From an uncultured Thermoleophilia bacterium (GTDB lineage: Bacteria > Actinomycetota > Thermoleophilia > UBA2241): a stretch of DNA of 37,344 nt. Under the pieces are notes generated by a model, which was not told where the DNA came from, did no database searches, and saw only the letters and a list, made by a program, of their open reading frames with translations. Positions 3,536 through 6,886 of this stretch are shown here, in pieces. The translations under genes were made by a program, and so were the position numbers. The number at the start of each line of letters is the position of its first letter. The first letter of the stretch is position 1. The DNA lies in NCBI GenBank assembly GCA_903862845.1, contig CAIOZS010000050.1, positions 1 through 37,344 on the forward strand, in the 5' to 3' direction.

Positions 3536-3733
3536 ATGGTCCAAGAGTCAGCGAGTTGGGCGCTCGTCGCCTACAGGGTCGAGGCCGACCACGTGAAGGT
3601 CTGGCAGACGGTCGGCAAGCTGCGCCGCCGGCACGGGCTCGTGATGAGCAGCGAGCCACGCGAGCCGGGCTACCGGGTCGAGGGCTGGACCTGGGAGGCG
3701 CGAAGGGTGAGGAGCTTGGTGCGGCAGGGGTAG
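3536..3733 (+). CDS. Hypothetical 65-aa protein ending in WTWEARRVRS tail
   Basis: A short reading frame 4 bp after the CPBP protease stop. It reads as a basic soluble peptide with no family I recognise. Its last 15 residues (WTWEARRVRSLVRQG then stop) recur almost unchanged at the end of another plus-strand frame at 6839-6886, with synonymous and conservative changes. That argues the segment was once translated. It may be an intact small gene or the 3' remnant of a larger one whose 5' part is lost. It sits at the lower-coordinate edge of the cassette-like gene array. Confidence 0.35.
   Translation: MVQESASWALVAYRVEADHVKVWQTVGKLRRRHGLVMSSEPREPGYRVEGWTWEARRVRSLVRQG
3686..3733 (+). repeat. WTWEARRVRS element, copy A
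   Basis: A 48-bp segment encoding WTWEARRVRSLVRQG plus stop. It matches copy B at 6839-6886 in the same strand and reading frame (shared core TGGGAGGCGCG...GGGTGAGGAGC). The two copies bracket the 3.8-6.6 kb cassette-like array. A third, weaker match (15 identical bases, GGGAGGCGCGGCGGG) lies at 346-360. Confidence 0.5.
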
Positions 3734-3816
3734 TCGGGAGCGTCAGAGGCGCAGGTGTTGCACTTCGGACTTGAACTTACGCGGCTCTCGGGCTGCGGCT
3801 GCGAGGCGGCGATACG

Positions 3817-4443
3817 TCACTGAAGTCGCCGGATTCCCGCCGTGCCAACGCCATCTTCCCAGGGCAGAATCTGGAGCCGAGGCCAGACCATGCTCCAGCG
3901 CTCGACCTTGGCGGCGTAGATGTCGGGCGTGATCTGCACCCTGTTGGGCCGGACGATGAGTTCGAGCAGATCGTCGGTGCTGAATGGCGCCTCGACTAGG
4001 AGGGTCCCGTTCTCTCGGCGGACACCGATCGCCGCAGCTGTCGTCGGCCAGGAGGCAAGCGCATCTTCGCACGAGGAGTAGGGCTGGATTTCGTAGCCGA
4101 AGCGGGAGGCGTACCAAAGATGGACACGTGCCTGGTTCTTGACGTCGGGGCGAAGAGGCAGATCGGAGAGTAGGTCGCGCACGCACGCCACCACCTCGTC
4201 CTCCGCGCGCGCAGACAGGTCCACGTCGAAGTAGGCGATGTCGAAATCGTCGATGCCCGTGGCAGCCGAGTTCCCGTGCGCCACGTTCCACACGGTCTGC
4301 GCGATGCAGCCGCCTCCGAGATACCAGTTCGGCAGGTCCAGCACGGCGAGGCGCTCGAGACACTCGCCCACGAGCTCGTTGCAGTCGAGGTCCCGCTGCA
4401 GACGCTCGGTGGCGATTGGCGCAGGTCGAGTATCGTCCTCCAT
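3817..4443 (-). CDS. Nucleotidyltransferase family protein (COG3575/NTP_transf_6-like)
   Basis: A 208-residue cytosolic protein resembling the PF06042-type nucleotidyltransferase fold. It has WYLGGGCIAQTVWN, corresponding to the G[G]x(n) substrate strand, followed by IDDFDIAYFDVDLS, which supplies the acidic metal-binding residues, and a C-terminal DIYAAKVERWSMVWPRL typical of the family. The biochemical substrate of this family is unknown. I chose the ATG at 4443; an in-frame TTG at 4473 would lengthen it without homologous sequence. It is the last gene of the minus-strand cassette-like array, and no convincing attC lies after its stop. Confidence 0.8.
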   Translation of the reverse strand: MEDDTRPAPIATERLQRDLDCNELVGECLERLAVLDLPNWYLGGGCIAQTVWNVAHGNSAATGIDDFDIAYFDVDLSARAEDEVVACVRDLLSDLPLRPDVKNQARVHLWYASRFGYEIQPYSSCEDALASWPTTAAAIGVRRENGTLLVEAPFSTDDLLELIVRPNRVQITPDIYAAKVERWSMVWPRLQILPWEDGVGTAGIRRLQ

Positions 4444-4468
4444 TGGGCACCGCCTCACATGCGACCTC

Positions 4469-4572
4469 GACAAACGCTAGTCCGTATGACGCCCGGCGCG
4501 TAGCCTGCAAACCACGGCTCCGCGCGCCTGCGGCTGCAGCTTACTGTCGGGGCCGTGGTTTGCAGGTTGACG
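4469..4572 (-). other. Degenerate attC-like palindrome
   Basis: On the minus strand the segment starts with CGTCAAC and ends with GTTTGTC. The conserved AAC and GTT triplets are kept, but flanking heptamer positions deviate from RYYYAAC/GTTRRRY. Inside is a perfect 15-bp inverted repeat, CCTGCAAACCACGGC and its complement (4504-4518 and 4552-4566), with a GCGT/ACGC extension beyond an internal loop. It lies where the attC of the HAD cassette should be. It could equally be a strong rho-independent-like hairpin without a U-tract; the arms are asymmetric relative to the heptamers. Confidence 0.4.
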
Positions 4573-5187
4573 CGCTTGTTCTACGGGCCGCTCACACAGG
4601 CCTTCCGCCACCAGGACGTCGCGGCAAGACCCGGGACTGTCGGCGAGATATGCCCGGATGCCGAGGTCGCGGGCGGCGTCGACACAGGTCGGCGAATCAT
4701 CGAAGAAGTAGGCCGCGTCAGGCTTGACCGCGAGCCGCTCGAGCACCATCTCGAAGACGTCGCGATCGGGCTTGATGCGCCCGAGGAGATGCGACGAGAA
4801 CGCGGCGTCGAAGTGCTCGGTGAATCCGCCGAACCGAGCCCAGTGGAGTTCGTTGCAGTTACTGAGGCAGGCGACCTGATGATGAGGACGTAGCTCGGCG
4901 ATCAGCGCGAGCGAGTCCGGCCAGAAGGCGCGCGGCCAGGTGACGAACTCGGCGAGGAACTCGCCCGGGGAGAGCGCGAGGTCCCATTCGGCGATGAAGC
5001 TCGCCGCAAAGGCGGCCGGGTCGCTGCGGCCGAGTTCGAAGGCGCGGACGGATTTGGAGGCAAGCCAGCGGTCCCGCGTCGCCCCGGCGTCAATGGGCTC
5101 GGGGAGAAGCTCGCCGAGCGCGCTGAGAGTGGCGTTCTCGACGAGAACGCCGCCCAGGTCGAAGACGATTGTCGGCGGTCGCTTCAT
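4477..5187 (-). CDS. HAD-superfamily hydrolase (YihX/HAD-IA-like phosphatase)
   Basis: A cytosolic phosphatase-like protein of 236 residues. Motif I is VFDLGGVL (nucleophile D10), motif II LSNCNE, motif III the Lys in GRIKPD, and motif IV FFDDSP. The FDLGGVL form is typical of the HAD-IA group acting on small sugar or nucleotide phosphates. The recognisable domain ends near residue 200. The last 35 residues are encoded by the palindrome at 4504-4566 and read like translated non-coding DNA, a common trait of integron cassette genes whose stop lies in attC. The start at 5187 lies only 7 bp from a GTTAGGC core site and has no Shine-Dalgarno, also cassette-like. Confidence 0.85.
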   Translation of the reverse strand: MKRPPTIVFDLGGVLVENATLSALGELLPEPIDAGATRDRWLASKSVRAFELGRSDPAAFAASFIAEWDLALSPGEFLAEFVTWPRAFWPDSLALIAELRPHHQVACLSNCNELHWARFGGFTEHFDAAFSSHLLGRIKPDRDVFEMVLERLAVKPDAAYFFDDSPTCVDAARDLGIRAYLADSPGSCRDVLVAEGLCERPVEQARQPANHGPDSKLQPQARGAVVCRLRAGRHTD

Positions 5188-5194
5188 GTGCTGT

Positions 5195-5254
5195 GCCTAA
5201 CGCGGTGCGGATATCCCGCGAGCACGGCGAGTCGGGTTGATCCGCTGGTTGGCG
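5195..5254 (-). other. attC-like recombination site between GNAT and HAD genes
   Basis: A 60-bp palindromic site. On the minus strand it runs from CGCCAAC (one AAC core, deviating from RYYYAAC at two positions) to a perfect GTTAGGC core in the common context GCGTTAGGC. Inner arms GCGGAT/ATCCGC and CCCG/CGGG pair with unpaired spacers between them, which is the L box/UCS/VTS arrangement of attC sites. It starts 10 bp after the GNAT stop and ends 7 bp before the HAD start codon, the usual cassette spacing. Confidence 0.65.
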
Positions 5255-5264
5255 GCCCTTGCAC

Positions 5265-5762
5265 TCAGAGAAACCGCTCCACGATGACCTCGGCAACGTA
5301 CCGGCCATCGACCTTGAGATGGCGCTCTGCCCTGCCCACGACACGGAATCCCTGCCCCGCGTAGGCGGCGAGTGCCGGCGGGTTGTCCTCCCGGATGTAG
5401 GTGAACAGCTTCTCGTAGCCCTTGACGCGGGCGGCGGCAAACGTCGCCGCGAAGAGTCGGGAGGCGACCTGCTGGCGGCGGCAGGCGGCGTCGACGTAGG
5501 TGCCGAGCACGCCGACGTGGTCGAAGAGACTCGTGTACGTGGCAAAGGGCTCCAGGCTCTGGAAGCCGACGAGCAGCCCGTCGCCGCGGCGTAGCGCAAC
5601 GTGAAACACGCCCCGGGAGGGGAAGCCGGCGATGTAGCCGCGCTCGTCTGACTCGGTGAGTGGAGCGTCGAACGCTACCGCCTCCGACTCGATGATGGGG
5701 TTCAGGACGCCGAGGACCGCGGCTGCGTCGTCTGCGCGTGCCTCACGGATGATGAGGTCCAT
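5265..5762 (-). CDS. GNAT-family N-acetyltransferase (phosphinothricin acetyltransferase-like)
   Basis: A 165-residue cytosolic acetyl-CoA-dependent acyltransferase. The order of segments matches the PAT/YncA subgroup: MDLIIREARADDAAAVLGVL at the N-terminus, VAFDAPLTESDERGYI, GFQSLEPF, a LGTYVDAACRRQQVASRLF acetyl-CoA loop, then FTYIREDNPPALAAYAGQGF and a VDGRYVAEVIVER end. Members acetylate small amines or toxic amino acids, but the substrate here is unknown. The ATG at 5762 with GGAG upstream is preferred to the ATG at 5819, which lies inside the adjacent attC. Flanked by attC-like sites on both sides, it is the best-delimited cassette in the window. Confidence 0.88.
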   Translation of the reverse strand: MDLIIREARADDAAAVLGVLNPIIESEAVAFDAPLTESDERGYIAGFPSRGVFHVALRRGDGLLVGFQSLEPFATYTSLFDHVGVLGTYVDAACRRQQVASRLFAATFAAARVKGYEKLFTYIREDNPPALAAYAGQGFRVVGRAERHLKVDGRYVAEVIVERFL

Positions 5763-5801
5763 CTGCCGCTCCGAGTCGAATCCTGCTACCGACGTTGGTC
5801 C

Positions 5802-5894
5802 GCCCAACGTGTTGCACATGAGCTGCAGGCCATCGCTGCCCTTACGTGCCGCATCATACCTGCGGGGCCTGTCTGCTCGATGTGCTTGTTAGAC
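5802..5894 (-). other. attC recombination site between phosphorylase and GNAT genes
   Basis: A 93-bp site with the full integron attC plan. Reading the minus strand: GTCTAAC (matches RYYYAAC), then GCACATCGAGC, a CAGGCC arm, a 30-nt centre, GGCCTG, GCTCATGTGC, and finally GTTGGGC (matches GTTRRRY). The L-type arms pair over 10 bp with one extra C (GCACAT-C-GAGC against GCTCATGTGC), as expected for the extrahelical base that sets recombination polarity. The stop codon of the phosphorylase gene lies inside the site. This is the strongest attC in the window. Confidence 0.82.
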
Positions 5895-6588
5895 CGCGCA
5901 TCGCTGCGACCCAGACGACGAGAACGTCTGCCAGGTGCGGGACGACTTCCTCGAGACTGGCGTGGAAGTCAGCCGCAGCGGTGGCATCGGCCGCGTCGGT
6001 GATGACGCGCAGCTCGACGAACCGTCGCCCGCTGAAGGCCGCCGCCCGCGCCGCTCCGGCTCCCTCCCAGGCCACGCAGAGCGCACCGGTCTCGGCGTGC
6101 AACTCGCCAGCCCTGGCGGAGTCGATGACGTCCTCGTCCCCGCTGGCGATGGGACCGCTCAGGATGCTGAAGCCGCCGGGCCAGTCGGAAGTCACGGCTA
6201 GGATCTCCCGCACCACACTTGGATCGGCTCTGTGGACGGGTAGCGGCTCGGCGACAAAGCGGAGCTTGTAGTCGTGCTCGACCGAACAGCTTCCAATGAC
6301 CACGTCACCCCACCGAGCGGTGGCGCTGAGGGAGCCCGCCCCCCCCGCGCAGACGACCGTCTGGACGTGCGGCAGCAGGTCGAGCAAGTGCTGGGTTTGC
6401 ACCGCAAGCTGGACCTTGCCGTGCCCTCCGACAGCCACGGCGAGTTCGAGTGCCTCCAGGAACGCGACGTCGAGCTGCCCTATGCGACGGACGGACTGCT
6501 CCTGGCCAAGTGCGCTCAGCGCAGCGAGGAGCGGTGCCGACTCATCGGCCTGTGGAACCATCACGAGTGTCTTGATCGTAGTGGTCAT
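5854..6588 (-). CDS. Purine nucleosidase/phosphorylase-like protein (PNP_UDP_1 fold, MTAN-like)
   Basis: A 244-residue cytosolic protein of the nucleoside phosphorylase-I superfamily, whose members split the N-glycosidic bond of nucleosides. Visible pieces are VAVGGHGKVQLA (start of the phosphate/base region), VVCAGGAGSLS followed by GDVVIG, and ETGALCVAWEGAGAARAA, which matches the ME-x-AAVA active-site helix with the usual Met-Glu written as Trp-Glu, then LRVITDAAD, the catalytic-Asp loop. It is probably an MTA/SAH-nucleosidase-like enzyme, though the substrate is not certain. The ATG at 6588 fits the family start (TIKTLVMVPQ); a longer reading passes through a core site at 6609. The C-terminal dozen residues are encoded by attC DNA. 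Confidence 0.78.
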   Translation of the reverse strand: MTTTIKTLVMVPQADESAPLLAALSALGQEQSVRRIGQLDVAFLEALELAVAVGGHGKVQLAVQTQHLLDLLPHVQTVVCAGGAGSLSATARWGDVVIGSCSVEHDYKLRFVAEPLPVHRADPSVVREILAVTSDWPGGFSILSGPIASGDEDVIDSARAGELHAETGALCVAWEGAGAARAAAFSGRRFVELRVITDAADATAAADFHASLEEVVPHLADVLVVWVAAMRGLTSTSSRQAPQV

Positions 6589-6608
6589 GGGTGGGCGTCC
6601 GATCGTCG

Positions 6609-6715
6609 GTCTAACTAGCATTCGGCAGACTGCGTAAGACCTTCAACGCGGCTGCTCCTTCCGCCCAAGACCATAGCACCCAACCTGACGAGGCGGCATA
6701 TCCAGACTGCGTAAG
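6609..6715 (-). other. Cassette-array boundary: lone core site plus 13-bp direct repeats (attI-like)
   Basis: Twenty bp upstream of the phosphorylase ATG the minus strand reads GTTAGAC (6609-6615), a perfect GTTRRRY core. No matching RYYYAAC lies within 130 bp upstream, so this is not a complete attC. Instead the 13-mer CTTACGCAGTCTG occurs twice on the same strand (6626-6638 and 6703-6715). A simple core preceded by direct repeats is the plan of an attI site, and the TTACGCAG word also occurs in attI1 as I remember it. No integrase gene is next to it, so the assignment is tentative. Confidence 0.35.
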
Positions 6716-6838
6716 CCCCAGGACTATTCACCCCTCCCAGCGCCCGCTGTCTACGCTGCCGCCGCGCACCAAGCGCAAGCATCGCAGCCTTACCACCTCT
6801 GCCGCAGCTGCGGCACCCCCGTCGCACTGGACCACTAC

Positions 6839-6886
6839 TGGACATGGGAGGCGCGGCGGGTGAGGAGCACGTTGAGGAGCGGGTGA
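6839..6886 (+). repeat. WTWEARRVRS element, copy B
   Basis: A 48-bp segment encoding WTWEARRVRSTLRSG plus stop, homologous to copy A at 3686-3733. Differences are mostly conservative or in third positions, and both end at a stop codon, so this is a coding-level similarity rather than a chance GC word. It lies just outside the upstream boundary of the cassette-like array. Confidence 0.5.

Follow-up and report, generated by a model that had tools for sequence, protein, structure and literature searches.

The window analysed here, a DNA stretch of 37,344 nt corresponding to the whole contig C50 of the metagenome-assembled genome (MAG) G000 (4.38 Mb, 94% complete, 352 contigs, 2.6% contamination), very probably carries a chromosomal integron of the inverted type without an integrase gene of its own: an attI site (6609-6716) followed by four minus-strand cassettes, with intI lost. 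The original prediction had described a CALIN-like cluster, i.e. a cassette array without an integrase, and this description is formally correct, as at least two attC sites are present and no integrase is nearby; it understates the locus, however, since it leaves out the diagnostic attI with which the array begins.

Cassettes, attC sites and the attI site

The array consists of single genes of different families, all in the minus orientation as originally predicted, lying behind the attI and delimited by GTT boundaries, with one attC each except for the fourth cassette. Cassette 1 (5808-6614) carries a phosphorylase-superfamily gene, hereafter PNP (ORF 5854-6588, 244 aa; Pfam PNP_UDP_1, 1.9e-17), cassette 2 (5201-5807) a GNAT acetyltransferase (ORF 5265-5762; Pfam Acetyltransf_1, 5e-9), cassette 3 (4490-5200) a HAD hydrolase (ORF 4477-5187; Pfam Hydrolase, 6e-11), and cassette 4 (3817-4489) an NTP_transf_6 nucleotidyltransferase (ORF 3817-4443; Pfam NTP_transf_6, 5e-47). 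The first three end in attC hairpins; a far-end attC of cassette 4 could not be recognized, the covariance model described below giving no match below position 4484. Two C-termini are encoded by site DNA, as had been claimed: the PNP stop codon (5854) falls within the attC of cassette 1 (last 13 residues GLTSTSSRQAPQV), and the HAD frame crosses the entire attC of cassette 3 to a stop at 4477, its C-terminal 35 residues being attC-encoded. The PNP gene is also the one whose start was correctly said to lack a Shine-Dalgarno sequence (CGACGATCGGACGCCCACCC-ATG). Stop codons had been said to lie inside the sites or within 10 bp of them; that of GNAT, at 5265, is 11 bp away from the attC of cassette 2.

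The attC sites were sought with a covariance model (R1) built from 20 attC sites located on other contigs of G000 and in related genomes, none of them from the window. This type of model was used because a hand-made stem-plus-core scan, which was discarded, gave no separation from shuffled sequence, the latter scoring equal to real sites in GC-rich DNA. The arms of R1 pair in 87% of cells, compared with 23-37% when the partner is slid, and exhibit 39 double-changed cells, where shuffles give 15.6. R1 also matches sites downstream of intI in MAGs labelled Coriobacteriia, Aquicultor, Geobacter, Nitrospiraceae and Spirochaetales, which indicates that it recognizes attC sites in general. The covariance scan, which the original prediction had itself proposed as a check, identified three minus-strand sites: the attC of cassette 1 (5802-5894, R' GTTGGGC; 64.6 bits, E 9.3e-17), of cassette 2 (5195-5254, R' GTTAGGC; 50.5 bits, E 1.3e-12) and of cassette 3 (4484-4584; 32.9 bits, E 1.8e-7; a 19-nt inverted repeat, 95%), with the best score elsewhere in the 37-kb window being 13.9 bits. 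The two strong matches are the palindromes initially taken for attC; the third attC and the attI had been overlooked. R''/R' and L''/L' boxes and the extrahelical base are found in both strong sites; in 5802-5894 the arms read R'' GTCTAAC, L'' AAGCACAT-C-GAGC, L' GCTC-ATGTGC and R' GTTGGGC, with the predicted extrahelical C of the inner stem at the expected position. In the site at 4484-4584 the inner arms are intact, the outer cores are degenerate and the R boxes unpaired. Judging from their sequences, the attC sites of the window may be expected to recombine, with that of cassette 3 being probably poorly active.

The recombination half of the attI, TCTTACGCAGTCTGCCGAATGCTA-GTTAGAC (6609-6639, minus strand), scored 34.9 with a weight matrix (PSSM) derived from 10 attI sites, all outside the window, while the runner-up in the window scored 7.1 and the best site in 30 random 37-kb sequences 15.1; the attI sequence model R2 gave 21.3 bits (E 1.2e-5). 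An upstream integrase-binding-like repeat, CTTACGCAGTCTGGATA (6698-6716, minus strand), occupies the same place as the repeat found just past the intI stop in relatives. In those relatives that possess an intact integrase, a TTACGCAGACTGCATA-like motif lies within a few bases of the intI stop, and beyond it follow a second copy of the motif and a GTTRRRY core that opens the first cassette. The position of the motif directly past the intI stop implies that intI reads towards attI, an arrangement known from Treponema (PMC3607928). The window site agrees with the attI sites of this clade in its two repeats, its 9-nt spacing and its core, and such position and conservation suggest that it functions as an attI. 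Its crossover core, GTTAGAC, corresponds to 6609-6615 and the full site extends to about 6716; the originally proposed end of the array, 6615, is therefore the attI core and not the limit of the element.

At the far end of the array lies a dispersed repeat (3578-3790, plus strand), copies of which are found in G000, G001, G002, G006 and G007, several of them adjoining attC arrays. It is composed of a YRVEDWTWEARRVRS-type coding remnant, which matched no Pfam family, and GGGAGCGTCAGAGGCG...GTTGCAC..., and it occurs also at 6838-6868 of the window and at L200:2095-2219, L202:4245-4291 and L217:1-80. In several members of the genus it forms the far-end boundary of at least three attC arrays, often at contig ends, and it could be an array-end element.

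Integrase genes and the surplus of attI sites

As originally predicted, no intI match was found in the window, including the vicinity of its attI; of the parts of a complete integron, the attI heads the array and the adjoining intI is missing. One candidate for an eroded IntI C-terminus beside the window attI, RGGSVDSGRWEG followed by a stop at 6728, was rejected (rank 180 of 990). The search of the genome and its relatives suggested with the original prediction revealed no intact intI in G000, from which one could be missing because G000 is a 94% complete MAG in 352 contigs, and only C-terminal remnants on its contigs C128 (108 aa aligned, 77%), C39 (60 aa, 75%) and C208 (28 aa, weak), each of which adjoins an attI. 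Intact IntI proteins above the family cut-off are encoded by genomes of the same family (G005, G007, G009, G011 and G013) and by a few genomes of other families, and complete intI-attI-attC units are seen in relatives; all genomes compared are draft MAGs, and the intI counts are minima. G005 (Thermoleophilia bacterium Loclat_bin-16816, Actinomycetota) is of the same genus as G000, and its IntI (472 bits) is ~58% identical to a Treponema-labelled IntI; G009 (Thermoleophilia bacterium UBA2241, Actinomycetota) is of the same family. In a quick tree with modest support most Actinomycetota IntI sequences group together (3 label changes versus 7.4 expected), and the integron system therefore looks resident in the lineage.

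Several further observations concern integrase genes. In G004:C527 (L215:7925-8345) the middle of intI is deleted and residues 13-100 and 281-337 are kept. A BrnT toxin gene with its probable partner lies between the intI remnant and the attI of G000:C128 (L014:10630-11119). The first ~140 bases of the contigs C39 and C208, which adjoin the intI remnants, are identical (L016:1-140, L018:1-140); this probably represents an overlap in the assembly graph, from a multi-copy element located upstream of attI. In one MAG, JPNA_maxbin.176 (JAKPQH01), two IntI-like genes that differ considerably from each other are located on different contigs (L108, L133).

The attI model detected 10 places in G000 at E < 0.02, 9 of them with a same-strand attC within about 2 kb. 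When relatives are included, there are 30 attI-like places, some of which had served to train the model, and 21 of the 30 are followed within 2 kb by an attC in the same strand; of the remainder, several are situated at the end of a contig or are weak matches from other families. G011 has one intact intI and 13 attI-like matches, with E no higher than 0.5 and, for ten of them, no higher than 0.0036. Within the family, 14 of 15 genomes contain attC sites; elsewhere in the class few genomes do. Directly upstream of attI in G008, G009 and G011 there are short intI ends of 16-53 residues, and the survival of such ends by attI agrees with a scenario in which an intI-attI unit was copied repeatedly and intI was then lost. 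Most likely, an integron platform multiplied within the genome, and intI disappeared from the majority of its copies.

Applied to the window, this would mean that an Actinomycetota integrase of the 'inverted' type, transcribed towards attI, bound the attI and the folded attC strand, that circular cassettes were inserted singly at the GTT within the core of attI, and that the platform then lost its intI, like most copies in G000; to move the remaining cassettes, an integrase would have to act in trans. The window attI would accordingly once have had an intI beside it. Against this explanation stand the lack of a detectable intI remnant by the window attI and the lack of a far attC in cassette 4.

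Alternatively, the array could be a live node of a distributed integron, in which many attI sites are served in trans by a single integrase that occurs in some strains or was missed by the assembly, and cassettes are still exchanged. The attI places of G000 with their downstream attC sites, the single intact intI of G011 and the cassettes common to several species in differing order all agree with such an arrangement, but no intact intI was found in G000, and the degenerate third and absent fourth attC suggest decay; we consider a live node rather unlikely. A broader proposal, namely that deep-branching Actinomycetota possess a distributed integron of scattered attI sites with short arrays and at most one integrase acting in trans, an arrangement that would let capture sites increase in number without the enzyme, is put forward only tentatively, with doubt still prevailing. 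The missing intI remnant could also point to off-target insertion of cassettes at a chance genomic site (attG-type) without any platform, a known source of CALINs (PMC8618304, PMC12444791). This is very improbable, as the array opens at a site matching the clade's attI in repeats, spacing (9 nt) and core.

Cassette exchange between species and the host genome

Three of the four cassettes (PNP, GNAT and HAD) recur in other arrays, at other positions and with other neighbours. The PNP gene has one homolog in the 60 genomes searched (69% identity), within an attC array of G001. In G004:C527 the GNAT homolog (78%) occupies the first cassette position after an attI-like site and an intI remnant, and HAD homologs reside in attC arrays of G014 (59%), G011 (53%) and G010 (48%). 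The homology of the HAD cassette begins exactly at the GTT crossover: DNA identity to G014 is 83-84% below the GTT core and 58-59% above it, with 62 +/- 3 expected by chance. The corresponding values for GNAT and G004 are 67-72% below and 58-62% above the GTT. Two other cassettes are shared between arrays of the genus, one with a carboxypeptidase-regulatory-domain gene (G000:C39 and G002:C246) and one with an unnamed gene (G000:C128 and G005:C65). The third cassette of G000:C128 (L014:8134-8511) is an Arr-type rifampin ADP-ribosyltransferase (PF12120, 5e-41), a family that is also a cassette gene in clinical integrons. In G005:C135 (L247:1501-1611) an attI-like match overlaps an attC end, perhaps a hybrid site within an array.

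Neither of the two outcomes named at the outset as fatal to the cassette interpretation was obtained: the covariance matches are strong, and in place of a fixed gene order in relatives without the palindromes, cassettes recur reordered beside attC sites. Collinear genes with palindromes between them could also represent an ordinary operon, in which intergenic hairpins (terminators or REP-like repeats) mimic attC, but this can hardly be credited given the covariance matches, the core boxes, the attI, the genes ending inside hairpins, the recurrence of the same cassettes and sites in other arrays, and an Rfam scan of the window in which no family was matched.

The window flanks are 82% identical to G005 across 1.76 kb and form collinear blocks of 80-91% identity with G001. 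These matches to same-genus Actinomycetota genomes confirm the predicted actinobacterial host and show that the contig belongs to G000 and is no contaminant. A misbinned proteobacterial contig, conceivable in a MAG with 2.6% contamination, has next to no probability in view of these flanks and of the same attC and attI types on further contigs. No clean empty allele of the array was seen in the two genomes compared, G001 and G005, where other genes adjoin the sigma factor at this locus; the flanks are common and the differences exceed the array.

Relation to known integrons

The original prediction called integrons unusual in actinobacteria. This agrees with a survey of complete genomes, in which Actinobacteria yielded one In0, a few CALINs and not a single complete integron (PMC9024848), but not with the intact intI, attI and attC common across the host family; a review lists Actinobacteriota among the integron-bearing phyla (PMC8618304). 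Outside class 1, attI sites have been described as poorly known, and because they go undetected there, software would label the window array as a CALIN (PMC9024848). Pseudogenes make up almost one third of intI genes, and one host in five carries multiple intI copies (PMC2426708); intI loss is one accepted source of CALINs (PMC8618304). In the open-access literature we found no description of integrons of Thermoleophilia or Coriobacteriia, nor of a genome with ~10 attI-led arrays and no or one integrase.

Integrons are native to the host family, and since this applies to a whole actinobacterial family, in which the attI can be defined, the system forms a separate lineage within the phylum and is not a matter of rare imports. 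The window array stands in a phylum where integrons were believed nearly absent. The family's attI set provides a basis for an attI model and for re-reading 'CALIN' calls elsewhere, and the excess of attI over intI raises the question: could landing sites spread or persist without an adjacent integrase, with capture in trans?

The sedentary chromosomal integron of Treponema denticola, with its inverted intI (PMC3607928), resembles the window in attC hairpins and single-gene cassettes on one strand, and differs from it in that here the host is an actinomycete-phylum (Actinomycetota) bacterium, the arrays are short, and there are many attI sites per genome, most of them without intI. Integrons of archaeal MAGs (PMC9668308) were likewise reported from a lineage presumed integron-free, being mostly CALIN-like, with attI downstream of intI; they belong to another domain, and the available part of that report does not note repeated attI sites per genome. 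CALIN elements (PMC9024848, PMC8618304) share with the window at least two attC sites and the lack of a nearby intI, whereas the window array has a recognizable attI at its head, which the CALIN definition ignores. The dispersed CALINs of Xanthomonas (PMC12444791) are similar in forming cassette clusters at several loci, away from a single intI; in the accessible text they are described without attI, whereas most of the clusters found here open at an attI.
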